From contig NZ_JAZHRV010000001.1 of assembly GCF_036924595.1 (NCBI RefSeq), positions 6,847,501-6,911,500 of the forward strand: a stretch of 64,000 nt of DNA, written 5' to 3'. This document shows, in pieces, positions 7,505 through 19,015 of this stretch. Under the pieces are notes generated by a model. It ran no database searches and was not told the DNA's origin. It saw only the letters and a list, made by a program, of their open reading frames with translations. The stretch is from Bradyrhizobium algeriense. GTDB taxonomy: Bacteria > Pseudomonadota > Alphaproteobacteria > Rhizobiales > Xanthobacteraceae. How positions within the stretch are numbered: position 1 is the stretch's first letter; every line of letters starts with the position of its first letter. Both the position numbers and the translations under genes were made by a program.

Positions 7505-8185
7505 ATGAGCAGGGAATTCGAAGAACACCTTGTTCGGTTCCGCAACCTGCCGCTGCCGGTCCGCGTGGTCTATGGCAGGCCGCGCACCTTCATCGCGCTC
7601 GCCGTCGGCGTCATCGCGTTCTTCCTGCTGCCCGGCACGCTGCGGCTGCCGACGCGGCTTGTCGTGGGATGGGACGTCTTCGCCGCACTGTACCTCGTGC
7701 TCGCCTACATCATGATGCTGCGCTGTGACGTCGGCCATATCCGCCGCAGCGCGGTGATGCAGGACGACGGGCGCTTCGTGATGCTGCTGGTCACCGCGCT
7801 CGGCGCCTTTGCGAGCCTTGCCGCGATCGTGTTCGAGCTTGGCGCCTCGAAGGGCAACCCGGCCGGGCTGATCCTGGCCACGGTGACGATCGTACTGTCA
7901 TGGGCCACCGTTCACACCGCCTTCTCGCTGCACTACGCGCACGAGTTTTACCGCGGCAGCGAGCCGGGCGGCCTGCAGTTTCCGGGCGGCGACGCGCATG
8001 CCGAGGCTGATTACTGGGACTTCGTCTACTTCTCGTTCGTGATCGGCATGACCGCGCAGGTCTCCGACGTCGGCATCACCGACAGGGTCATCCGCCGCAC
8101 CGCGACCGTACACGGCATCATCTCGTTCGTGTTCAACACGGCGCTGCTGGCGCTGATGGTGAATATCGCGGCGAGCGCGATCTAG
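7505..8185 (+). CDS. DUF1345 family membrane protein
   Basis: 226 residues with about five hydrophobic segments and the family's hallmark C-terminal stretch: HTAFSLHYAHEFY, then GLQFPGGD, then YWDFVYFSFVIGMTAQVSDV. Family function is unknown. The conserved YWDF(V/L)YFSFVIGMT segment resembles the selectivity region of a channel-like fold, but that is speculation. SD AAGGGCAG lies before ATG 7505. It converges with the caspase-like gene across a strong hairpin. Confidence 0.9.
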   Translation: MSREFEEHLVRFRNLPLPVRVVYGRPRTFIALAVGVIAFFLLPGTLRLPTRLVVGWDVFAALYLVLAYIMMLRCDVGHIRRSAVMQDDGRFVMLLVTALGAFASLAAIVFELGASKGNPAGLILATVTIVLSWATVHTAFSLHYAHEFYRGSEPGGLQFPGGDAHAEADYWDFVYFSFVIGMTAQVSDVGITDRVIRRTATVHGIISFVFNTALLALMVNIAASAI

Positions 8186-8212
8186 TCCCCGTCGCCCCGG
8201 CGCCTTGAATCT

Positions 8213-8245
8213 GGCCCCGGCCTCCTGCCGTGAGGAGCCGGGGCC
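8213..8245. terminator. GC-rich hairpin between convergent genes
   Basis: GGCCCCGGC plus TCCT pairs with AGGA plus GCCGGGGCC around the loop GCCGTG, with a single bulged C. It lies midway between the stops of the DUF1345 gene (plus) and the caspase-like gene (minus). No T-run follows on either strand, so it is better described as a bidirectional hairpin that may stop transcription or protect 3' ends than as a classical intrinsic terminator. Confidence 0.55.
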
Positions 8246-8270
8246 GTAGCGTGTTAACACGCGGCTGTGG

Positions 8271-10046
8271 CTACGGGCACACGCCCGACATGATGGCCCC
8301 GTAGGAGTGGCAACCCACCTGACGTTCCTGGCCGGTAAGCGGCCGGCCTGTAGATGAGTACCCTGCACCGGTCGGTCCCTGAGAACGCCTGACAATGACT
8401 TGCCGTGGTTCCCGAGCTTGCCTTGCTTCGGGAACGCGCCGTGATTCCGGCCTGTCGCGCGTTGCCACCGGCTTTTTGGCGCGACGCGGCTCGCATTCAT
8501 TATCATCGTTGAGGAACGAGCCCTCGGCACAGGTGATTTTCGTGCAGCGCTCGCCGTCGACCTTGTAGCCGTGTTCGCAGACCAGCGGGCACACCCGTGA
8601 CGACTTCAGCTTGATCGTATCGAGCGTATCGATGCTGGCGACCTTGGTATCGAGCTTGGTCCCGGCGTAGCGGTTGAACAGCGTCAGCGATCGCTGCGAG
8701 ACGCTGTTCCAGTTGCCATCGGCATTGCCGGCCAGGCAGCCGACGCGGCGCAGTTCGGCCTGCACCGATTTGGTGACGTCGGCTTGCGGCGGCCCCGCGG
8801 CGAGGGCAGCAACGTTCACCGCCTTGTCCTTGTCAGCGGGCGCCGGAGCGGACGCCTTGTCGGCGGTAGCGCTTTCGGCAGCGACACGCTTCTGTTCGGC
8901 CGCGGCCGCCTGTTCCTGCGCCAATTGCTTGGCCTTTTCAGCCGCGACGCGCGCCTGCTCGGCAGCCTTGGCTTCGGCCTCGGCCTTTGCCTGCTGCGAC
9001 TTCTGGGCGCCCTCGGCGGCGAGCCGTGCCCGCTCCTGTTCGGCCAGCCGCGCTTTTTCAGTCGCCGCGACGCGGGTTTCCTCGGCGGCGATCTTGTCGA
9101 GCTGAAGCTTGGCAAGGCTTGCATAGAAGCCATCGGGATATTGCGCGAGGAAGGCGTTGAGCGCGCTCTTGTTGCCTATCTGCAGCGCGAGTTCGTAATC
9201 GCGGCGGGCCTCGGCCTGCGCGCTCTGGGCGGGTGTCGGAGCGGCCGCCGCCGCGGGCGCCTGACGGGGCGCCGGTACCAGCGGCACGTCGTCACCGCCG
9301 AGCGAACCATACACAAAGGGTTCCTGCCGGTTGTTGGTGGTCTTGAGCACCTCGTCGCGCACGAAGCCGAAGGCGCGGCGCACGTCGAGCCCGGGCTTCG
9401 TCAAATGATGCGACAGCGCCGCCGTGAACGGGCTGTTCTTGCCGTCGCCATCGGCCGCGGTGGACCCGGCCTTCGCCGAATAGGCGATCAGAACGTTCGG
9501 GCTGGTCGGCTCGACCTTGGCCAGGCCCTGCCCGATCGCGCGCGAAGCGACCGTGCGCTTCATGGTCCGGGAGAACGGATTGTCGCGGCAGGCGTCGAGA
9601 ATCACCAACCGCAATTTCTTGGCCGGCTCGATCGCGATCAGAATGCGGTCGAGCGAGAGGCCTTCGTCGTAGATGTCGGTGTCGCGTTCCAGCCGGGCAT
9701 CGACGGGGATCAGGTAGTTCGCGCCGTCCACCTCGATGCCGTGGCCGGCATAATAGACCACCGCGATATCGGCATCGCGCGCGCGGTCGGCGAAGTCGCG
9801 CAACGCGCGACGGGTTTCGGCTGCGGCCATGTCCCGGCGGGAATCGACGACGTCAAAGCCGGCATCTTTCAGCGTCGCCGCGATCCTGGCGCTGTCGTTA
9901 ACCGGATTGGCCAGCGGTGCGACATTCTGGTAGTTGGAATTGCCGAGCACCAGCGCCACGCGCTTTTCGGCAACCGCCGGCCCGCTCACCAGCAGGAAGG
10001 TGGCGGCTGCAAGTGCCCATCGGCACAACTTTTGCGATCCAGACAT
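8271..10046 (-). CDS. Secreted caspase-family (metacaspase-like) protein
   Basis: A peptidase C14 caspase-fold protein. A signal peptide (about residues 1-28, ending GPAVAE) directs export. The caspase p20 domain spans about residues 29-265, with the catalytic His in YYAGHG and the catalytic Cys in LDACRDN. Residues 280-400 are an Ala/Lys/Glu-rich coiled coil. After a linker, a peptidoglycan-binding-like helical segment (about 425-465) precedes a Cys-rich stretch (VCPLVCEHGYKVDGERC) and a basic, disordered tail ending CHSYGAIMSGVCP. Three consecutive ATGs occur. The third (10046) is eight bases from the SD GGAGGAG, whereas the first is only two bases away, so 10046 is chosen. Substrates are unknown. 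Similar proteins are common in Bradyrhizobium and are not established as death effectors. Confidence 0.88.
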   Translation of the reverse strand: MSGSQKLCRWALAAATFLLVSGPAVAEKRVALVLGNSNYQNVAPLANPVNDSARIAATLKDAGFDVVDSRRDMAAAETRRALRDFADRARDADIAVVYYAGHGIEVDGANYLIPVDARLERDTDIYDEGLSLDRILIAIEPAKKLRLVILDACRDNPFSRTMKRTVASRAIGQGLAKVEPTSPNVLIAYSAKAGSTAADGDGKNSPFTAALSHHLTKPGLDVRRAFGFVRDEVLKTTNNRQEPFVYGSLGGDDVPLVPAPRQAPAAAAAPTPAQSAQAEARRDYELALQIGNKSALNAFLAQYPDGFYASLAKLQLDKIAAEETRVAATEKARLAEQERARLAAEGAQKSQQAKAEAEAKAAEQARVAAEKAKQLAQEQAAAAEQKRVAAESATADKASAPAPADKDKAVNVAALAAGPPQADVTKSVQAELRRVGCLAGNADGNWNSVSQRSLTLFNRYAGTKLDTKVASIDTLDTIKLKSSRVCPLVCEHGYKVDGERCTKITCAEGSFLNDDNECEPRRAKKPVATRDRPESRRVPEARQAREPRQVIVRRSQGPTGAGYSSTGRPLTGQERQVGCHSYGAIMSGVCP

Positions 10047-10287
10047 CATCATGACTCCTCCGGAGCCTCGTACTTTTTTACCACACCGGCCTGCCTATCA
10101 GAAGCCACAGCCCGGCTTTGTGAGTTAAGTCACGAACCACGCCAACGTGAATCGCGCCCTCGCCTTATCGTTAGTCGGGCCAGCGCCCCGTCGGTTCGGC
10201 CATGGCCGATCACCTTTTCCGCCGGGTTCCCGCCCAGGTATAAACCTCCGGCGACGAGCATGTATTCCCCGGAGCAGCGTGAGCCGC

Positions 10288-10716
10288 TCAACGCGGCTCG
10301 ACATGCTCCCGGTATTGCGGCAGGTCGTCCGTGATCGCAAACCACGATGCCTTGGAGCCGACAAAAATGTGAGCCGTCGGGCGGATCGAGGGATCATCGA
10401 CCAGCGTGCCCATGGCGACATGGACGAAAGCGCCTTCACGCACCACCGAATAGAGCAACGAACCGCATTTCCGGCAATGCGCGTCGTGGCCGGCCTCGTC
10501 GCCATAGATCATGAGATCGTCCTCGCCCTTGGTGACACTGAATTTGTCGCGCGCGATGCCGGCGAACGGCTTGAACGCCGCGCCGGTGGTGCGCCGGCAA
10601 TTCGAGCAATGGCAGTTCAAGGCGTAGCCGAATTCGTCAGCCACGGCATAGCTGACCGCGCGGCAAAAGCATTCTCCGGCAAGAATGCGAGCATTCGATT
10701 TTGCTGAACCCGCCAC
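10288..10716 (-). CDS. GFA/CENP-V family zinc protein (DUF636)
   Basis: About 142 residues with the family's zinc-binding cysteines: GECFCRAVSY, then NCHCSNCRRTTGAAF, then HCRKCGSLLYS. The family is named for glutathione-dependent formaldehyde-activating enzyme, but that activity is disputed and most members have no proven substrate. GTG 10716 lies six bases after GAGGAG and is preferred over TTG 10722, which touches the SD. It is a single-gene unit, transcribed divergently from the NTF2-like pair. Confidence 0.88.
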   Translation of the reverse strand: MAGSAKSNARILAGECFCRAVSYAVADEFGYALNCHCSNCRRTTGAAFKPFAGIARDKFSVTKGEDDLMIYGDEAGHDAHCRKCGSLLYSVVREGAFVHVAMGTLVDDPSIRPTAHIFVGSKASWFAITDDLPQYREHVEPR

Positions 10717-10817
10717 CTGCAACTCCTCGCAACCGTGATCAAGTCAGCCTAGCGCAACGAAGAGGTTCGTGGCTTAATTCAATTCGAACAAATTTCTTTT
10801 CGCCGGGAGGAACTGCC

Positions 10818-11192
10818 GTGAGTCACGACCGATCGACCGTGGAAGCCGTGGTCAAGAATTATTTCGATGGCCTTTATGAAGGCGATGCCGACAAGCTCGG
10901 CGCGATATTCGACCCCACTGCCGATCTGCGCTGGCTGGAAAAGGGCGAGTTGCAGGTGCTGACCGTGCCGGACTGGCTCGATCGCGTGCGCAAGCGCCCC
11001 TCAGCCAAGGCTGAAGGCAAGCCGCGCGAGGATTTCATCGTCATGATCGACCGCTCCGACGATCAGACCGCCTTCATCAAGGTACGCTGCCAGTTGCCGC
11101 CGCGCTATTTCACCGACTATCTGGTGGCAATGAAATTGCGCGACGGCTGGAAGATCGTATCCAAATCCTACCGCTACGATCTGCGCGAGTAG
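10818..11192 (+). CDS. NTF2-like (lumazine-binding-type) protein, first of a tandem pair
   Basis: 124 residues of the NTF2-like cone fold (Lumazine_bd_2/SnoaL-type). It runs from STVEAVVKNYFDGLYEGDA through RCQLPPRYFTDYLVAMKLRD to a C-terminal beta hairpin, DGWKIVSKSYRY. The GTG start at 10818 follows GGGAGGA with six-base spacing. It encodes VSHDRSTVEA, which aligns with the start of the downstream paralogue. No catalytic assignment is possible; related proteins are putative small-molecule binders or isomerases. Its last 37 or so residues are identical to those of the next gene. Confidence 0.85.
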   Translation: MSHDRSTVEAVVKNYFDGLYEGDADKLGAIFDPTADLRWLEKGELQVLTVPDWLDRVRKRPSAKAEGKPREDFIVMIDRSDDQTAFIKVRCQLPPRYFTDYLVAMKLRDGWKIVSKSYRYDLRE

Positions 11193-11219
11193 CGATTTCC
11201 AACCAAACGGGGCTTAATC

Positions 11220-11606
11220 ATGCAGCAATCCGTGAACCATGATCTTTCTACCGTAGAGGCCGCAGTCCAGCACTATTTCGACGGCGTGTACGAAGGCGAC
11301 GTCGAGAAGTTGGGGGCCGTCTTTCACCCGTCCGCCGACCTGCGCTCGTTGGAGAACGGCAAGCTGCGAGTTCTTACCCTGCCTGCCTGGCTGGACTGGA
11401 TGAAAAAGCAGCCTTCGGCCAAGGCTGAAGGAAAGCCGCGTGAGGATTTCATCGTCACCGTCGACCATTCGGACAATCAGACCGCCTTCATCAAGGTACG
11501 CTGCCAATTGCCGCCGCGCTATTTCACCGACTATCTGGTGGCAATGAAACTGCGCGACGGCTGGAAAATAGTCTCGAAATCCTACCGCTACGATCTGCGC
11601 GAGTAA
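11220..11606 (+). CDS. NTF2-like protein, second of a tandem pair
   Basis: 128 residues, about 75% identical to the preceding protein, from which it is separated by 27 bases. The N-terminal two thirds have diverged (for example LRSLENGKLRVLTLPAWLDW). The region from TAFIKVRCQLPP to the C-terminal DLRE is identical, with only a few synonymous nucleotide changes. The pair arose by tandem duplication. The uneven divergence suggests gene conversion or strong constraint on the 3' part. Start ATG 11220. Function unknown, presumably binding a small hydrophobic ligand. Confidence 0.85.
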   Translation: MQQSVNHDLSTVEAAVQHYFDGVYEGDVEKLGAVFHPSADLRSLENGKLRVLTLPAWLDWMKKQPSAKAEGKPREDFIVTVDHSDNQTAFIKVRCQLPPRYFTDYLVAMKLRDGWKIVSKSYRYDLRE

Positions 11607-11613
11607 TATCGAC

Positions 11614-11736
11614 TCAGGCTTGGGCACCCGCCGGCGCGGTGTCTGCACCGCCACTGCGGCGGCCAAGATTGCCCCGGATCATGCGCATCACGACGGCCGA
11701 TTGCAGCAGCCGTGTCAGCGGCGCCTCCTGACGCAC
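11614..11736 (-). CDS. Possible 40-residue ORF (uncertain)
   Basis: GTG 11736 opens a 40-codon frame on the minus strand that reads RQEAPLTRLLQSAVVMRMIR and then a Gly/Ala-rich end. Third-position GC is high and the composition is plausible, but there is no SD and an in-frame stop sits two codons upstream. It could be a true small gene, or the decayed 3' end of something larger. It lies between the convergent ends of the NTF2-like pair and the antiporter promoter. Confidence 0.22.
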   Translation of the reverse strand: MRQEAPLTRLLQSAVVMRMIRGNLGRRSGGADTAPAGAQA

Positions 11737-11842
11737 GCGTCACAAATTTGTCAGGGGCGGCCTGAAAACGCTTCGCCCTTCGCCCGTGAGCGCGCGCCTT
11801 GCGCATTGACCTTGCGGTTTTTCCCTGCGAATGGGGGCGATC

Positions 11843-13450
11843 ATGGAAGCCAAATTTCAGATCTTCTTGATCCTGCTCGCGGTGCTGGCAGGGACCGCGT
11901 TGCTGGCGCGGCGAATCCACGTCGCGCCGGCCATCCTGCTGCTGCTCGCCGGCATCGCGCTCGCCTTCGTGCCCGGCATGCCGACGGTGGAATTGCCGCC
12001 TGAATTGGTGCTGCTCGTATTCCTGCCGCCGCTGATCTATTCGGCGAGCGTCGCCATGAGCTGGCGCGAATTCAAATCCAATCTCCGTCCGATCATCCTG
12101 CTGTCGGTCGGCTGCGTGATCTTCACCGCCTTCGCGGTCGCGACCGCGACGCATTATCTGATCGGGCTGCCCTGGGGCGTCGGCTTCCTGCTGGGGGCGA
12201 TCGTCGCGCCGCCGGACGTGGTGGCGCCGCTGGCGATTGCGCGCAAGCTCGGCATGCCGCGCCGCATCCTCGTCGTGCTCGAGGGCGAGGGGCTTGCCAA
12301 CGATGCCACCGCATTGATCCTCTACCGGTTCGCGGTGGCGGCGATTTCGACCGGGCTGTTCTCGCTGCCGAAGGCCACCGGCACCTTTGCCGTCATCGTG
12401 GTCGGCGAAATCCTGTTCGGTGTGGCAGTCGGATGGCTCTCCTTGCGCGCACGCCATCGTGCGCGGGACCCTCAGGTCGAGATCACGCTGTCGCTGATCA
12501 CCCCCTACCTCGCCTTCTGGATCCCCGAGCATCTCGGCGGCTCCGGCGTGATCGCAACGGTAGCCTGCGGGCTCTACATAAGCTGGAACGGACCGCTTTT
12601 GATTTCATCGGCGACCCGCCTGCAGGGCATCTTCTTCTGGGACCTCGTGATCTATCTGGTCGAGGGCTCGCTGTTCCTGCTGACGGGATTCCAGATGCGG
12701 CTGCTGTTCGAGAAATCGAAGGCGTTTCCGCTGCAGGATATCCTGTTCGCCACCGCGCTGGTCGCAATCATCGTCATCCTGGCCCGCTTTGCCTGGGTCT
12801 ACCCCGCAACCTATCTGCCGCGTCTGATCAGCAGACGAATCCGTGAACGTGATCCGCCGCCATCCTGGCAGACCGTGTTCGTGGTGGCCTTCACCGGCGT
12901 GCGCGGCGCGGTGTCGCTCGCAGCGGCGCTGGCGTTGCCATTGGCACTGCCCGGCGGTGAGGGCTTTCCCCACCGCGACATGATCCTGTTCGTTGCCTTC
13001 GGCGTCATCTTCATCACCCTGGTGGGATTGGGGCTTGGCTTGCCGGCGGTGGTGCGATGGCTCGGGGTCGCCAAAGACGGCCGCAGTGAGCATGTCACGG
13101 AACATGAGGCCGAGATCGCGGCCCGGCGCGAGGCGCTTGATGCCGCGCTCAAGTCGCTCGACACCATCACCGACGACCGCGAACTCTCCGATGAAGTCGT
13201 GAAGCTACTCAGGGCACGCCACGAGATCCGCAGCAATCAGCTCCCGGATTCGCTCGATCCCGAAGCCCACGACGTTTCTGCGGCCGGCACCGCCCTGACG
13301 CGGGAATTGATCGCGGCGGAACGGAAATTCATCCACGCCCTGCTCCGCGACGGCAAGATCACCGACGAAACCAGACGCCGGATCGAGCGCGACCTCGATC
13401 TGGAGGAAGCGAGCTTGAGCAATCGAGAGTACCGGAAGATTCTGCTGTAG
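11843..13450 (+). CDS. CPA1-family Na+/H+ antiporter
   Basis: 535 residues. About twelve membrane segments span residues 1-410, followed by a cytoplasmic, charged helical tail of about 120 residues. The CPA1 ion-binding segment reads LEGEGLANDATALI, with the Asn-Asp pair. FTGVRGAVSLAAALALP is the conserved Arg-containing helix. It exchanges cytoplasmic Na+ (possibly K+) for protons and supports pH and salt homeostasis. ATG 11843 is preferred to ATG 11831 because GGGGGCG precedes it at suitable spacing. It is a single-gene unit ending just before a palindromic repeat. Confidence 0.92.
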   Translation: MEAKFQIFLILLAVLAGTALLARRIHVAPAILLLLAGIALAFVPGMPTVELPPELVLLVFLPPLIYSASVAMSWREFKSNLRPIILLSVGCVIFTAFAVATATHYLIGLPWGVGFLLGAIVAPPDVVAPLAIARKLGMPRRILVVLEGEGLANDATALILYRFAVAAISTGLFSLPKATGTFAVIVVGEILFGVAVGWLSLRARHRARDPQVEITLSLITPYLAFWIPEHLGGSGVIATVACGLYISWNGPLLISSATRLQGIFFWDLVIYLVEGSLFLLTGFQMRLLFEKSKAFPLQDILFATALVAIIVILARFAWVYPATYLPRLISRRIRERDPPPSWQTVFVVAFTGVRGAVSLAAALALPLALPGGEGFPHRDMILFVAFGVIFITLVGLGLGLPAVVRWLGVAKDGRSEHVTEHEAEIAARREALDAALKSLDTITDDRELSDEVVKLLRARHEIRSNQLPDSLDPEAHDVSAAGTALTRELIAAERKFIHALLRDGKITDETRRRIERDLDLEEASLSNREYRKILL

Positions 13451-13452
13451 TT

Positions 13453-13591
13453 GTCGTCCTGGCCAAGCGCAGCGCGAGCCGGGACCCATACGCTGCGGCG
13501 GTAATCATCCGGCACGGAGGTCGTTTTCTTCCACAACGCAAGCCTGTGGTTATGGGTCCCCGCGCGCAATTGCGCACTAGGCGGGGACGAC
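13453..13591. repeat. Palindromic intergenic repeat, same family as 440-543
   Basis: Outer arms GTCGTCC/GGACGAC (13453-13459, 13585-13591) enclose GGGACCCATA ... TATGGGTCCC, as in the IS-split repeat at 440-543. A local hairpin around GCGCGCAATTGCGC is also present. It lies between the convergent antiporter and Rieske oxygenase genes. The element carries GCACTAGG next to the right-hand arm, a sequence also formed at the left junction of IS copy B. Confidence 0.82.
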
Positions 13592-13608
13592 TCGCCGAGA
13601 GAGCGCAG

Positions 13609-14949
13609 CTACTCTGCCGCCGCATTCCTGCCGGGATGACCGACATAGCCGGCCGCGTCGCCGAACCGCTCGATCATGACCGCGGTGAGGTCCTTTGTCT
13701 TGCTGGTGACGCAGGCGCCGGATCGCACCGCGTAGCGGTCCTGATGCTTGAGGTGCGGCGGCGCCTCACCCTTCTGCAGCGCGCGGGCGGCATCCATGAC
13801 GAGCTTGCGGAAATGCATGATGCCGAGATCGGTCGGGCCGAGATGTTCGCGGGTGCGGTCGGCGATCGGACCCTGGCTGTCCTGCACGGCGGCGTCCTGT
13901 TCGGACACGCCCTTGATGCCGGTGTAGCTATGGGTCTTCTGCAGCTTGCGATCGATCAGATAGTCGTTCGCCTTGTTGCGCCGCGGAATATAGTTCTCGT
14001 CGACCTCCGACATCACGCCGTTGCCGCGGTCATAGCCGTCGCGCTCGGCCTGCGTCAGCGGCCGCTCCGGATTCCAGGCATAGGTGTAGATCCAGCAGCT
14101 CGTATCGTTCACCGGAATGAAACTCTGGCCGAAAATATTCTCACCCGGCATCGAACTCGGCGCATAGGCGTGAACCGGCATCAGGAATTGAGCGATCCGC
14201 CAGTAAATGTTGTCGGTTCCGGTGAGCCGTCCGCCGGCGACCGTGAGGCCGGCCTCGTGCGGATTGATCTTGATCACCGGGCGCGGGTCTTCGGCGATCC
14301 ATCGCATATGGTCGGTCGCGACCCGTACAAGCGGATTCACAAAGTGCTTCTTGATGTCGAGGATCTCGTTCTCTTCCTTTTCAAAGGACAGATGCGCGAA
14401 GGTGAAATGCGCGGTGTCGATCGAGCCTTCCAGCGCCTGTACCCAGTTGCAGTCCTGCCATTTCTTCGAGACATAGCGATGTGAGGCCGGCAGCAGCGCC
14501 ATTTCCAGATCAGGCAATTCCGGCATCTGGTCCGCCGGGCCCATATAGGCCCAGATCATGTCGCCCCATTCCCGCGCCGGATAGGACTTGATGCGGATCA
14601 GGTCCTTGGCGTTGAGATCGGGATAGGAGGTCGGCATGTCGACGCAAGCGCCCTCGGTGTCGAACTTCCAGCCGTGATAGACGCAGCGGATGCCGCATTC
14701 CTCGTTGCGGCCGAGCCAGAGATTGGCGCCGCGATGCGGGCAATATTGATCGATGACGCCGACCACGCCGCGGGTGTCGCGAAAGGCGAGCAGCTCCTCG
14801 CCCATGACCACGATCTTTTTTGGCGTACCGTCGGGCTCGGGCAATTCGGCCGACAGCAACACCGGGATCCAGAAGCGGCGCAGCAGCTCGCCCACGCCGG
14901 TGCCTGCACCGCTCTCGGTGAGGAATTTGTTGTCTTCTGCGCGGAGCAT
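13609..14949 (-). CDS. Rieske [2Fe-2S] aromatic-ring oxygenase, phthalate-4,5-dioxygenase-like alpha subunit
   Basis: 446 residues. The N-terminal Rieske centre is seen as CPHRG and CVYHGW (Cys-His pairs near residues 70-93). The mononuclear iron site is in NWVQALEGSIDTAHFTFAH, giving the bridging Asp and two His ligands. The length and the LLRRFWIPVLLSAEL start place it with the phthalate dioxygenase/VanA-type oxygenases that pair with a separate flavin/2Fe-2S reductase. No reductase is adjacent, so the electron donor must be encoded elsewhere. The SD is GGAGG, seven bases before the ATG. The substrate is unknown. An aromatic or methoxyaromatic acid is plausible given the protocatechuate cluster 14 kb away. 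Confidence 0.92.
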   Translation of the reverse strand: MLRAEDNKFLTESGAGTGVGELLRRFWIPVLLSAELPEPDGTPKKIVVMGEELLAFRDTRGVVGVIDQYCPHRGANLWLGRNEECGIRCVYHGWKFDTEGACVDMPTSYPDLNAKDLIRIKSYPAREWGDMIWAYMGPADQMPELPDLEMALLPASHRYVSKKWQDCNWVQALEGSIDTAHFTFAHLSFEKEENEILDIKKHFVNPLVRVATDHMRWIAEDPRPVIKINPHEAGLTVAGGRLTGTDNIYWRIAQFLMPVHAYAPSSMPGENIFGQSFIPVNDTSCWIYTYAWNPERPLTQAERDGYDRGNGVMSEVDENYIPRRNKANDYLIDRKLQKTHSYTGIKGVSEQDAAVQDSQGPIADRTREHLGPTDLGIMHFRKLVMDAARALQKGEAPPHLKHQDRYAVRSGACVTSKTKDLTAVMIERFGDAAGYVGHPGRNAAAE

Positions 14950-15287
14950 GGGGCGACCTCCGGGTTGTTGTTTTGCTTTTGATTAAGCTTGACGCGGGAT
15001 CGCACGGGCGTCAACGCGCGCGACTTCATGGGACATCTGCTGTCGGCGGCGAAGCCAGACGACTACTCACCTCAGGCCGCTACTATTTGAAAATGAAAGG
15101 AAATTCTTCGCACGCCATTTACGACGCCCGCCGTGCTGGAGGTGTCGCGCGAGTCCGGTGATTCGCCACACCCACTGATTGTCCGCGACTGTTGCAGAAG
15201 AGGGACGGACGAATACGCAATCCACCAGTAAGTTGGTTCCCAGTTTGAATTCGGAATTGTCTTATGGATACCTATTTGGGGCCTCTG
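14950..15287. other. Intergenic region between divergent Rieske and outer-membrane protein genes
   Basis: 338 bases without a supportable gene. It must hold the promoters of both divergent genes. The stretch 15060-15120 is more AT-rich than its surroundings. I see no clear repeat, RNA gene or operator. Confidence 0.5.
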
Positions 15288-16124
15288 ATGAAAAGAATTG
15301 CCATTGCAGCTGCGGTTGTCTCCCTGCTCTTCGCCGGCGCTGCTTCGGCGGCCGACCTGGACGCCAAGGCTCCGCCGCCCGTGGCGCCAGTTTTCTCGTG
15401 GACTGGCTTCTACGTCGGCGGCAACGTCGGCGGCGCATTCACCAATGACACGGCGTTCGGCATCACCGACCCGAATAACACGCTGGGCCTGACAGGCGGC
15501 TTGGTGCCGATCAACTTCTCGGCGTCGCCGACCAGCGTAATTGGCGGCGTTCACGCGGGCTACAACTGGCAGGTCGGGCCGACCTGGCTAGTCGGCATCG
15601 AAGGCGATTTCAGCTTTACGTCGCTGCGTTACCAAGGCTCGCTGTCACCTTTCGTCAGCGCTCTCCCGCCGGCGAACAGCTTCTCGAACTCCAATCTGCG
15701 GATCGATAACCTCGCCACCATCCGCGGCCGTCTTGGGTGGACCCAAAATCAGTGGTTGCTCTACGTGACAGGCGGCGGCGCATGGATGCACGCAGATGCC
15801 TCGGGCGACGTTGGTTGTCCCAATACGGGCGTATTTGCCTGTGGCTTCAACTCCCGCAATCCGTTCTCGTCGGACCTCAATAAATGGGGCTGGGTGGCCG
15901 GCGTCGGTGGTGAATTCAAAGTCACAAACAACTGGATCTTCGGCCTCGAATATCTTTACTACAGGTTTGACGGTGCCACCTTCGCAGCCCGGAACGTCGA
16001 TATCACGACCGGCGCTGCGACCGGCCGTTGCTGCGCGCTCTACAATTTCAACGACTTCGAAATTCATTCGGTGCGTGCGCGTCTGAGCTATCAATTCGGT
16101 GCTCCGGTCGTCGCCAAATACTGA
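15288..16124 (+). CDS. Outer-membrane beta-barrel protein (Omp25/RopB/Omp31 type)
   Basis: 278 residues. A signal peptide (MKRIAIAAAVVSLLFAGAASA) is cleaved before ADLDAKAP. The rest is an eight-stranded porin-like barrel (OMP_b-brl) with the family pattern FSWTGFYVGGNVGGAF, GGVHAGYNWQ, TIRGRLGWTQNQWLLYVTGG and the C-terminal strand SVRARLSYQFG. Such proteins are abundant surface proteins in rhizobia and Brucella. ATG 15288 places the signal peptide correctly; an in-frame ATG at 15264 would put eight polar residues before it. An intrinsic terminator follows. Confidence 0.92.
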   Translation: MKRIAIAAAVVSLLFAGAASAADLDAKAPPPVAPVFSWTGFYVGGNVGGAFTNDTAFGITDPNNTLGLTGGLVPINFSASPTSVIGGVHAGYNWQVGPTWLVGIEGDFSFTSLRYQGSLSPFVSALPPANSFSNSNLRIDNLATIRGRLGWTQNQWLLYVTGGGAWMHADASGDVGCPNTGVFACGFNSRNPFSSDLNKWGWVAGVGGEFKVTNNWIFGLEYLYYRFDGATFAARNVDITTGAATGRCCALYNFNDFEIHSVRARLSYQFGAPVVAKY

Positions 16125-16145
16125 TCGGCGCTCCAACGAAGTCAA

Positions 16146-16171
16146 AGCCCCGGCATCGTCCGGGGCTTTTT
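16146..16171 (+). terminator. Rho-independent terminator of the outer-membrane protein gene
   Basis: AGCCCCGG, loop CATCGT, CCGGGGCT, then TTTTT. A perfect eight-base stem 22 bases after the barrel-protein stop codon. Confidence 0.9.
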
Positions 16172-16205
16172 CATGTTCGAGCGGCCGCCTCACACCGGCC
16201 GTTCT

Positions 16206-16280
16206 CTTCATCCGGTCCGACGGCGACTCGTAGACCGCCGACATGTTGGCGAACAGCGTGTCGCTGACGCGCGGCCCCAC
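16206..16280 (-). pseudogene. Fragment of a tauD-like dioxygenase gene
   Basis: Read on the minus strand, this stretch gives GPRVSDTLFANMSAVYESPS followed by DRMK. It aligns with PRGGDTLFANMYAAYEALSD plus RMK of the intact tauD-like protein at 17994-18887. One block of about 24 bases is identical at the DNA level (matching around 18421-18444). No other part of the gene is recognisable. The fragment and the intact gene have the same orientation and bracket the TIR-domain gene. Confidence 0.75.
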
Positions 16281-16307
16281 CTGTCTTGGGTCCGACGGGT
16301 AGCGCCG

Positions 16308-17813
16308 TTACGCCGCTGCGGTCAGCCCGACCTTCGTTTGCGCGCCCGATACGATCCGGCCAAGCGCCAGCAGGACCTTGGAAGTGAAGTCTTCATTCAG
16401 GACGCGCGTGCTGTCACAGAAGGCCTGCAGCACGGTCACGAACTCGGCCTTGTTCTGCAGAAGCTCGCGGTCGTCGGCAGTCGCGAGCATTTTGCGCGCG
16501 GCGGCATAAAGCTTGCTCTTTTCCGTCTCCCAGATGCCCGACTTCCTCTCGATCTCGCCGGTCGGCAAATCGCCGAGGATTTGAAGAATGCTTTCGGGCT
16601 CGTTCAAGCCGGCGTCCTGGCTGTACCACAGCAGGTAGTCCAGTTGCTGGATCATCTCGGCAATTCTTCCGCGCAGATCATGCAACGTCGCATTGAAGCT
16701 ATTTGGCGAGAATTCGCTGGTCTTGCCTTCAAGGAACATGAATCGATACTGCAGTCCGATGGAAATCGCCTTCAGCAGCATCGTTGTAGTCGGATCACCG
16801 TAGTCCTTGTACCTGATCTCGACGATGTAGATGTGAAATTCGCGCACGCCGCTGTAATAGATGACGCTTCGCGCAACGAACATTCTGAACGCGCGGTCCT
16901 TTTCTTGCGAGGTGACGACCTGCCGATTGTCCCGGAAATCGCCGCGCATGGCCGCCGACGTCAGCATTTGAATGGTGGAAGTCCAGCAGCGGGCGATGTC
17001 TTCCTCCCCGATACTTTCGGCAAATTGCGACCAGGGAACCGGCCCGCCTTGCGGCGCCTGAAATCCGAACGAATCAAACCGGCCGAAGAATTCGACGGTC
17101 GCATCCGACAAGGCGTCGCCGCGGCCGGGCTGGCTCGCCGCAAGGCTTGTACGAACGACGATCTTGCGTTCGGGAAAATTCTCCTGGTAGACGCGCTTCT
17201 GCAGTTCAAGATGAACGACGTTGAAGAGACGCGCTGAGGATTCGAGCAATTGCTCATTGAAAGCCTCCTGCTCTTCGTCGGAGAGCTGGATCGACTGGTT
17301 GATGATCCCCTGGATGCGCTTGAACAGCCTGAAGATCGGACTTTTCTTCAAGGCGCCGTTGGCGGCGCCGGCCGGGTTCGCCGGGTTTTTCAGGGCGGCG
17401 GGGTCCACCACCATCGGATCGAACGGTGCATTGATCTGCAGCGCCTGAATATCGGACATGGTCTCCGGCGTCTTGGTGAAGACGGCGACCGGAATCATGA
17501 TCCGGTCCTGAGTCGGAAAATGCTCCATCTTCGGAGAATGCGAGATCGAGGCATCGAAATAGCCGACTTCGAAGCCGGTGAACGAATGGCTCACTTTTTG
17601 TTTGCCGGTGGCTACGACTAGTAGAATGTCGGTGTCATCAAGATCGGCCTTCAGCCGGTCACGCCAGTTCGAGCCAAGCGAGAATTCAACGTCGATGGTC
17701 AGCTTGAGAATGGCGGGATTGAAAGCGCGCCGCAGTTCTTCGGCGATCGCGGTGGCGAGATCCCTATCCTCGGAAGAATAACTGATGAATACGTGGAGCC
17801 GCTCTTCTGCCAT
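16308..17813 (-). CDS. TIR-domain protein with a long uncharacterised C-terminal region
   Basis: 501 residues. Residues 1-135 are a TIR domain: HVFISYSSEDRDLATAIAEE forms the first strand and helix, WRDRLKADLDDTDILLVVAT the middle, and SFTGFEVGYFDAS carries a Glu where NADase-type TIR domains have their catalytic residue. A low-complexity Asn/Pro/Ala linker (about 150-175) leads to some 320 residues I do not recognise. These are mixed alpha/beta with RSVIYYSGVREFHIYIVEIR and helical segments, and may be a sensor. Bacterial TIR proteins often degrade NAD+ or make signalling nucleotides in antiphage defence, but no partner gene of Thoeris or CBASS type is adjacent. ATG 17813 follows GGAGGTGCGAA and is far better than the upstream in-frame start. 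It sits between a tauD fragment and intact tauD. Confidence 0.85.
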   Translation of the reverse strand: MAEERLHVFISYSSEDRDLATAIAEELRRAFNPAILKLTIDVEFSLGSNWRDRLKADLDDTDILLVVATGKQKVSHSFTGFEVGYFDASISHSPKMEHFPTQDRIMIPVAVFTKTPETMSDIQALQINAPFDPMVVDPAALKNPANPAGAANGALKKSPIFRLFKRIQGIINQSIQLSDEEQEAFNEQLLESSARLFNVVHLELQKRVYQENFPERKIVVRTSLAASQPGRGDALSDATVEFFGRFDSFGFQAPQGGPVPWSQFAESIGEEDIARCWTSTIQMLTSAAMRGDFRDNRQVVTSQEKDRAFRMFVARSVIYYSGVREFHIYIVEIRYKDYGDPTTTMLLKAISIGLQYRFMFLEGKTSEFSPNSFNATLHDLRGRIAEMIQQLDYLLWYSQDAGLNEPESILQILGDLPTGEIERKSGIWETEKSKLYAAARKMLATADDRELLQNKAEFVTVLQAFCDSTRVLNEDFTSKVLLALGRIVSGAQTKVGLTAAA

Positions 17814-17993
17814 TTCGCACCTCCGAAATATCATTTTGAATTTTATCGATAGACACTCCGTGCAACGGATGGTTGCGTAACGCGCCAAAGCCTATCCGGC
17901 GCGCAGGCGCGACAAATGTGACGTAGTTCACACAAGAGGGTTTTTATCTGGATAGCGAGATGGCAATAGCGCGTCGCGCCGGACGCGCCATCC

Positions 17994-18887
17994 TCACACC
18001 GGCCGCTCGCCCTTCACCGTCACCCGCGTGCCTGACCTTGTATGCGGCCAGTAGTCCCACATCGCACGGTGCTGGGCGCAGCGGTTGTCCCAGAAGGCGA
18101 TGGCGTTTTCGGTCCAGCGGAAGCGGCACTGGAACAGCGGGTTTTCCGCGTGCTGGTAGAGATAGGCCAGCATGGCGTCGCTCTCGTCGCGGGGAATGCC
18201 TGTTATGAAGCGGGTGAAGCCGCGGTTGACGTAGAGCGCTTTCTTGCCCGTCACCGGATGGGTGCGCACCACGGGATGCTCGGCGCGCGGATATTTCACC
18301 CGGTCGGCGACGCCATAGTTGGCATAGAGCCCGCGATAGGTCTGCTCGCCGTCGTGCAGCGCGGTGAGGCCGTCGAGATAGGCCTTCATCCGATCCGACA
18401 GGGCCTCGTAGGCGGCATACATGTTGGCGAACAGCGTGTCGCCGCCGCGCGGCGGGCATTGCTTGATGTAGAGGATCGAGCCCATCGGCGGCTCGACGTC
18501 GCAGGACACGTCGGTATGCCAACCCTCGCCATTGGCGCGCGGCGAATCCTTGTCGGCATAGATCTTCATCAGCGCCGGGTCGCCCTCATTGGGCGCCGCC
18601 GGGTGCACATGCAATTCGCCGAACTTGCGCCCGAAGGCGAGGTGCTGATCGGGGCTGATGTGCTGGTCGCGGAAGAAGATCACGAGGTTTTCGGCGAGCG
18701 CGCGATGAATCTCGTCCATCTGGCGATTGGAGCGCGTGTCGTCCGAGACCAGATTGCCGATGTCGACGCCGGAAATTTCCGCGCCGATGATCGGGGTGAG
18801 TTTTTCGACGCTGATGGTCTCGTAGGGCTCGGTGTCGCCGGCGGTGTGCCTGTAGCGGGGTCCCTGCTTGCCGGACAACGAGCTCAT
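17994..18887 (-). CDS. TauD/TfdA-family Fe(II)/2-oxoglutarate dioxygenase
   Basis: 297 residues. The iron-binding facial triad is visible as His and Asp in GWHTDVS and His in NRCAQHRAMWDYWP. The 2-oxoglutarate-binding Arg is in SGTRVTVKG. Family members oxidise taurine, other sulfonates, 2,4-D-type herbicides or related small acids. The length and the LYVNRGFTRFITG segment match the TauD/TfdA group, but the substrate cannot be assigned. SD GGGAGAAAC lies six bases before the ATG. It is not linked to a sulfonate transporter here. Confidence 0.9.
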   Translation of the reverse strand: MSSLSGKQGPRYRHTAGDTEPYETISVEKLTPIIGAEISGVDIGNLVSDDTRSNRQMDEIHRALAENLVIFFRDQHISPDQHLAFGRKFGELHVHPAAPNEGDPALMKIYADKDSPRANGEGWHTDVSCDVEPPMGSILYIKQCPPRGGDTLFANMYAAYEALSDRMKAYLDGLTALHDGEQTYRGLYANYGVADRVKYPRAEHPVVRTHPVTGKKALYVNRGFTRFITGIPRDESDAMLAYLYQHAENPLFQCRFRWTENAIAFWDNRCAQHRAMWDYWPHTRSGTRVTVKGERPV

Positions 18888-18920: not shown

Positions 18921-19015
18921 ATCGTAGCCCGGATGGAGCGAAGCGCAATCCGGGATCGGTCTATCGGCTCGCGAGAAAGACCCCGGGTTTCGCTTCGTGG
19001 CACCCGAGCTACGAT
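18921..19015. repeat. Imperfect palindromic intergenic repeat
   Basis: The left arm ATCGTAGCCCGGATGGAGCG and the right arm around ACCCGAGCTACGAT form an imperfect inverted repeat. The inner arms AATCCGGG/CCCCGGGTTT add to the structure. It lies between the start of the tauD-like gene and the 3' end of ispG, ending one base before the ispG stop codon. Confidence 0.8.

Follow-up and report, generated by a model that had tools for sequence, protein, structure and literature searches.

Results

A TIR protein with a large partner domain in a slot between two oxygenase genes

The window analyzed here, meaning the whole 64,000-nucleotide stretch of the Bradyrhizobium algeriense genome (contig NZ_JAZHRV010000001.1, positions 6,847,501 to 6,911,500), contains a reverse-strand gene, referred to below as the TIR gene, whose product joins an N-terminal TIR domain to a C-terminal domain of about 350 residues and which lies in a slot bordered by genes for a tauD-type dioxygenase and a Rieske-type oxygenase (Table 1). 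It is confirmed to be a genuine gene, and its product represents an uncharacterized TIR fusion family that is real, under selection, and likely to have an immune role, with the partner domain as its novelty. Use of an alternative start at an upstream TTG would give a product of 526 residues. The Rieske gene owes its label to its sequence and to metagenome entry P0079, which carries PF00355, the Rieske protein of the window having been outside the Pfam scan.

Table 1. Features of the TIR locus, in window coordinates
Feature	Position	Strand	Basis and remarks
TIR + C-terminal domain protein gene	16308..17813	-	501 aa from ATG; open reading frame, homologues along whole length, dN/dS
TIR domain, residues 1-135	17409..17813	-	PF13676; E82 column; profile alignment to PDB chains
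C-terminal domain, residues 150-501	16311..17366	-	Sub-threshold matches only; distant members align
C-terminal core, residues 321-380	16674..16853	-	SGVREFHIYIVE...GDPTTTMLLKA...LQYRFMFLE...SEFSP; highest conservation
Intact tauD-type dioxygenase gene, 297 aa	17994..18887	-	Slot border; PF02668 E 1.6e-68
Rieske-type oxygenase gene	13609..14949	-	Other slot border; named from sequence and P0079 (PF00355)
Insert relative to G265 and G023	15019..16265	.	OMP_b-brl gene, terminator-like hairpin, and tauD remnant
OMP_b-brl gene	15264-16124	+	Pfam E 9.7e-16; adjoins tauD remnant
Terminator-like hairpin	16144-16169		Within the Omp/tauD-remnant insert
tauD 3'-end remnant with internal deletion	16181..16275	-	Nucleotide match to intact tauD

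The TIR domain and its glutamate

Residues 8-88 match TIR_2 (PF13676) at E 2.8e-9, with 38 bits against a cut-off of 28, and Pfam gives no other family at E <= 1 for the whole protein. TIR_2 was seen at E <= 1 in all 46 members of the smaller family alignment (A1), and two distant relatives (L008 and L011) fall just below the cut-off of 28, at 26.5 and 27.6 bits. A first-pass annotation of this DNA had proposed that the Glu of NADase-type TIR domains is kept, and our results bear this out. A family TIR profile built from eight divergent domains (A4) matches two PDB chains, 7uwg at E 6.1e-5 (labeled Molecular chaperone Tir) and 8g83 at E 1.1e-4 (labeled NAD(+) hydrolase AbTIR). In each of them, the E82 column lies over the Glu of WTNYEL, which we take to be the catalytic residue of AbTIR. 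E82 is Glu in 94/94 full-length rows (46/46 in the smaller alignment), and an aromatic residue (F, Y, or W) occupies position 78, four residues ahead of it, in all 94 as well. From these alignments, it is likely that the TIR domain cleaves NAD+.

The PADLOC matches of the window protein are weak and confined to its TIR part, the PycTIR model matching there at E 1.3e-4. The ThsB models reach 0.028 for the window protein and 0.002 at best among the members, covering the TIR part only where the match was located, and the SAVED_TIR match, where located, likewise covers TIR residues only. The PADLOC candidate PDC-S66 is touched by 15 of the 46 members (best E 5.2e-6), and its match in P0067, P0058, P0064, and P0051 takes in the TIR stretch only, at profile positions 140-208 of 282. 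In PHROGs, the window protein has no match, and two distant members match in the TIR region only. Five further TIR_2 matches, four of them above the cut-off, occur in the own genome (G000:C1:7279160-7279883, 947663-949029, and 7793386-7793724), and two of these sites hold two TIR matches close together.

The C-terminal domain

The claim of the first-pass annotation that the C-terminal region matches nothing known also holds, in that profile searches of residues 150-501 returned sub-threshold matches only. For the C-terminal ~350 residues, nothing lies above the cut-off in Pfam or NCBIfam, and no PADLOC or PHROG match falls there. Several candidates were rejected as chance matches: NCBIfam MADS5 (E 0.051, 12.4 bits against a cut-off of 400), two designed proteins that were the only matches of the single protein in a PDB sequence search (E 0.048 and 0.076), ribosomal S19 (E 0.053), designed proteins, and other sub-threshold matches in the PDB profile search, NMB0537_N in one distant member (17 residues, E 0.0011, below its cut-off), and weak Pfam matches in one or two A1 members (Stork_head, PilJ, YbjN, and others). 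The C-terminal domain can be aligned across seven members, some of them distant; with L014 as the reference, the other six are 17-37% identical. A rough secondary-structure estimate was too weak a basis for assigning a fold. As judged by sequence comparison, the C-terminal region is confirmed as a genuine conserved domain with no credible match to a known family.

Conservation is unevenly spread along the protein. Over 46 rows, the mean majority frequency is 0.71 in the core at residues 321-380 versus 0.59 in the TIR domain, and it lies below that of the TIR domain in segments 136-215, 216-320, and 381-501 (0.44, 0.51, and 0.48). E362, S366, and R310, the last of which is just outside the core, are invariant in 94/94 rows, and G339 and T343 are kept in 93. 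So strict a conservation of the core suggests a constant ligand, a constant partner, or a fold core, and the more variable rest of the domain would leave room for changing contacts.

One conserved architecture

The family comprises 119 entries, of which 90 came from a protein search (E <= 1e-3), one new entry from a profile search (of 89 found), and 28 from a C-terminal profile built from four distant members. The protein searches score the 8000 candidates that share the most words, and rarer fusions may therefore escape them. Homologues match along the whole length, at 92-32% identity to the window protein in A1, and the 93 entries of 470-575 aa that form the 94-row alignment together with the window protein all align over the TIR domain. 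Of the other 26 entries, 25 match the family profile as partial copies of this protein, none with more than 36 residues left unaligned at its front. The remaining one, P0090, fuses ~298 residues resembling an ABC-transporter ATPase to the final ~92 residues of the family and was taken as a joined or misassembled entry. As 25 of these 26 entries are partial copies and P0090 looks joined or misassembled, no other effector is credited, and the C-terminal domain was not found on a credible different effector among the 119 entries. No description of this combination of TIR and C-terminal domain was recognized in the literature searched, from which subscription journals were largely absent.

Distribution and selection

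The first-pass annotation had left open whether the gene varies in presence and absence, and the answer is now clear. Within the genus, 8/265 genomes match at E <= 1e-20, the own genome (G000) included, and another genome of the same species (G063) lacks the TIR gene; an earlier genus draw had given 2/60, again with the own genome included. The other carriers are G265 (94%), G023 (92%), G156 (37%), G282 (32%), and G129, G078, and G102 (23-26%). With the C-terminal profile A2, which has the own genome and G156 among its rows, 7/391 genomes of a family-level draw match at E <= 1e-8, and the single match in a phylum-level draw (1/398) is the own genome. Five loci were found on GTDB contigs, including Rhodoplanes and a metagenome-assembled genome (MAG) of the acidobacterial Bryobacterales.

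Among three close copies, the pairwise ratio of nonsynonymous to synonymous divergence (dN/dS) is 0.10-0.12 for the whole gene, 0.03-0.06 for the TIR domain, and 0.10-0.13 for the C-terminal domain, and it is clear that the TIR gene is under purifying selection. Synonymous divergence (dS) of the flanking genes between G000 and G063 is 0.11 for the antiporter, 0.20 for Rieske, and 0.33 for tauD, and between G000 and G019, it is 0.10, 0.38, and 0.34, in the same order. On these values the flanks are mosaic, which would fit recombinational exchange of the slot contents.

A variable slot between tauD and Rieske

The slot was surveyed by tblastn at 57 loci in 56 genomes (G031 twice). The sample is non-random, with G265, G282, G023, and G063 chosen by TIR status or kinship and the rest taken from tauD matches; loci with the TIR gene elsewhere (L068-L071) and one whose contig ends before Rieske (L072) were kept apart. 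At least part of the Rieske gene lies within the fetched stretch in 39 of the 56 genomes, and 17 have no Rieske match. The first-pass annotation had suggested a comparison with strains lacking the gene, and this comparison gave a clean empty site, the gap between tauD and Rieske being only ~47-208 bp in 26 of the 39 genomes with both genes. Similarity to TIR-less relatives starts at window ~17985-17996.

In the other 13 genomes, the slot is filled. G265 and G023 carry the TIR gene there and G282 a homologue at 30% identity, while G002 has an Omp gene, G005 a UvrD_C-like gene, and G063 a methyltransferase gene (L073:4374-5216). Five more (G004, G134, G130, G164, and G266) hold 3.2-5.3 kb including a TAXI-type binding protein, a label read by eye without a Pfam run, and two small inserts measure 308 and 489 bp. 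The TIR gene has the pattern of accessory cargo carried in permissive gaps between genes of metabolism. In G282 (L054:7527-7670), only the first 48 Rieske residues were matched, and in G002 only 27. On the far side of tauD, a dispersed repeat of ~90 nt adjoins that gene at window 18923-19013 and is matched on both strands; nearly all of the 77 locus-query matches in G063 land on it.

Origin of the tauD remnant

The first-pass annotation had placed the TIR gene between an intact tauD and a tauD fragment in the same orientation. This arrangement stands, with the amendments that the fragment consists of two pieces and that it adjoins an OMP_b-brl (Omp) gene absent from that description. Positions 16206-16275 match tauD at 18384-18453 (86% over 70 nt, same orientation), and 16181-16204 match the tauD 3' end at 17985-18008 (83% over 24 nt). 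Since the two pieces abut while their tauD counterparts lie 375 nt apart, the remnant resembles the 3' end of tauD after loss of an internal segment. Compared with tauD in the loci of 11 relatives, it gives BLAST E values of ~1e-15 to 1e-19, which makes a chance match very unlikely.

The fragment had further been read as the mark of a cassette insertion with partial duplication of tauD, and this part of the annotation fails. Such an insertion would explain why tauD sequence flanks the TIR gene on either side, but it is hard to reconcile with G265 and G023, where the TIR gene sits in the same place, immediately flanked by tauD and Rieske, and both the fragment and the Omp gene are absent (window 15019-16265 is missing), or with P0079, in which the C-terminus of the TIR protein runs straight into the Rieske protein. 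Moreover, in G007 (L123:8275-10104), which has no TIR match in the slot, two Omp genes beside an intact tauD are separated by a tauD 3' fragment, and we consider the cassette insertion very improbable. The Omp genes of the G007 and G002 slots are 32-36% identical in protein to that of the window (31.8 and 35.9% for the two in G007, one of which was scanned and gave OMP_b-brl at E 4.3e-17), and the related Omp gene of G002 adjoins tauD. These two loci indicate that the slot takes up Omp genes next to the 3' end of tauD and that remnants of tauD can be left behind. The OMP_b-brl gene that adjoins the fragment in the window explains it, and the remnant travels with the Omp gene, independently of the TIR gene. 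The insert at 15019-16265, which holds the Omp gene and most of the remnant, has no DNA match at E <= 1e-20 in the 145 other genus genomes searched. The window remnant ends at CGCGCGGC, which recurs in tauD and, in both G265 and G023, downstream of the TIR gene; its occurrence in all of these places therefore suggests joining at short homology. This corrected history removes a misleading clue as to how the TIR gene arrived.

Neighborhoods at other loci

Eight neighborhoods were listed as open reading frames, and most of the neighbors, judged by eye, look unrelated to defense. At three loci picked by eye, the neighbors were scanned with Pfam (10 proteins, two of them without a family). Downstream of the gene at L071 (G102, 7602-15595) lie a protein with TIR and SLOG cluster 2 domains, a patatin-like protein, and another TIR protein, a group that is possibly a defense cluster. 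L069 (G129) has a TIR_2 match below the cut-off, a Hypoth_Ymh protein, and a DUF4145-like match below the cut-off. At L007, two trypsin-like proteins, one with TPR-S, lie ~1.8 kb and more from the gene, and MAP3K_TRAF_bd was also matched. Conflict-type neighbors at all three scanned loci are suggestive of an immune role.

Discussion

A proposed one-gene sensor-effector

We put at about 0.5 the probability that the TIR gene encodes a one-gene immune sensor-effector in which the C-terminal domain triggers NAD+ consumption by the TIR domain, probably as abortive defense against phages. Residues ~150-501 would sense infection through a conserved molecule or a protein, and this would cluster the TIR domains. 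Two TIR domains would then share one active site, with E82 cleaving NAD+, and the loss of NAD+ would halt the infected cell before it could release phages. The TIR homology, the retained Glu, the single conserved architecture, the selection, the patchiness, the empty site, and the distant homologue in the same slot are the observations from which this reading sets out; NADase activity, clustering, phage sensing, cell suicide, and mobility are what it would predict.

Several results weigh against a sensor-effector of this kind. No family match was found in phage records, plasmid records, or viral contigs, the window neighbors are metabolic genes and a porin-like gene rather than a defense island, and other cargo of the slot, such as the methyltransferase, Omp, and TAXI-like genes, does not look defensive. 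The conflict-type neighbors come from a selected sample of three loci. In the three close genomes, dS of the TIR gene is 0.27-0.32 versus 0.27-0.55 for the flanking tauD and Rieske genes, and because it is within the flank range, the TIR gene is not a very recent arrival in these lineages and looks stably inherited there. Conservation in the core at residues 321-380 exceeds that of the TIR domain, which is unexpected for a fast-evolving sensor of phage proteins; the C-terminal domain outside the core is less conserved than the TIR domain, and the argument from core conservation thus cuts both ways.

A more specific version of the sensor-effector, which we advance as a tentative possibility, is that the C-terminal domain may be a new sensing fold with a fixed pocket that recognizes one conserved molecule and switches the TIR NADase on directly. 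The candidate pocket residues would be R310, G339-D340, T343, Y356-R357, E362, and S366. A single-protein ligand-gated suicide system of this kind was not found described in the literature compared.

Other explanations

It is also conceivable, if on balance unlikely, that the protein is a regulator or stress protein outside of defense, whose C-terminal domain would bind a host metabolite and whose TIR domain would lower NAD+ or serve as a scaffold. The higher conservation of the core would be expected with a fixed ligand, and the metabolic neighbors and the flank-like divergence in three genomes agree with such a role. However, the gene is rare and patchy even within the species, unlike housekeeping stress proteins, and some distant homologues, at the selected loci, lie near other TIR and SLOG genes.

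We have stronger doubts that the protein, on sensing infection, uses its TIR domain to produce a cyclic ADP-ribose-type signal that acts on a separate effector encoded at another site in the genome, like ThsB in Thoeris. SpbK is reported to yield both ADP-ribose (ADPR) and a cyclic ADPR (PMC12847820). The ThsB matches of the TIR part and the five further TIR_2 matches in the own genome also point in this direction, but the former are weak and, where located, confined to the TIR part, and no effector gene adjoins the TIR gene in the window. A search of the own genome with PF18185, which we take to be the ThsA SLOG domain, gave no match, and 14 control genomes were also without one.

A secreted TIR protein that dampens host-plant immunity is hardly credible: some bacterial TIR proteins dampen host immunity in animals and the genus Bradyrhizobium includes plant symbionts, but no strongly hydrophobic segment was found in the TIR protein (best 19-residue mean 1.08, at residue 480, by hydropathy only and with no signal-peptide program), and homologues also occur in Rhodoplanes and an acidobacterial MAG.

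Significance and comparison with known systems

TIR domains are a common thread of bacterial, plant, and animal immunity, and the triggers of their activation are known for only a few. The one-gene sensor-effector proposed here would offer a compact test case, with one gene, one catalytic residue, a strain of the same species without the gene, and pocket-like invariant residues, and its partner domain, with a strictly conserved core, resembles nothing in the libraries searched.

Among known systems, the window protein shares with Thoeris a TIR part that weakly matches ThsB models, and it differs in having no ThsA adjacent in the window, where the neighbors are tauD, Omp, and Rieske, and in its extra 350-residue domain. 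In the TIR-SAVED and TIR-STING proteins of the cyclic oligonucleotide-based antiphage signaling system (CBASS), as well as in PycTIR of Pycsar, a TIR effector is fused to a sensing domain. The window protein also fuses TIR to a second domain, and its TIR part matches the PycTIR model. However, neither SAVED nor STING appears at E <= 1 among the 20 Pfam families listed for 46 members, a comparison of sequence only in which a diverged fold may go unseen, and no cyclase is present among the neighbors tauD, Omp (by Pfam), Rieske, ispG, and the antiporter (read from sequence). Swarozyc relies on a DUF4062 TIR-like NADase, whereas the window protein matches TIR_2 and no DUF4062 is among the families listed for the 46 members. 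In the four members for which the position of the PDC-S66 match was determined, the likeness is limited to the TIR stretch.

The nearest mechanistic parallel is SpbK of Bacillus subtilis, which we liken to the window protein by domain description and not by direct sequence comparison. SpbK is reported to be likewise a TIR protein with a non-TIR sensing domain, and this domain binds the phage portal, clusters the TIR domains, and activates NAD+ cleavage (PMC12847820). In that description, a short N-terminal helical domain precedes a C-terminal TIR domain, whereas the order is reversed in the window protein and the partner measures ~350 residues. By analogy with SpbK, the window protein would act in the same way, with a different and larger domain across from its TIR domain.

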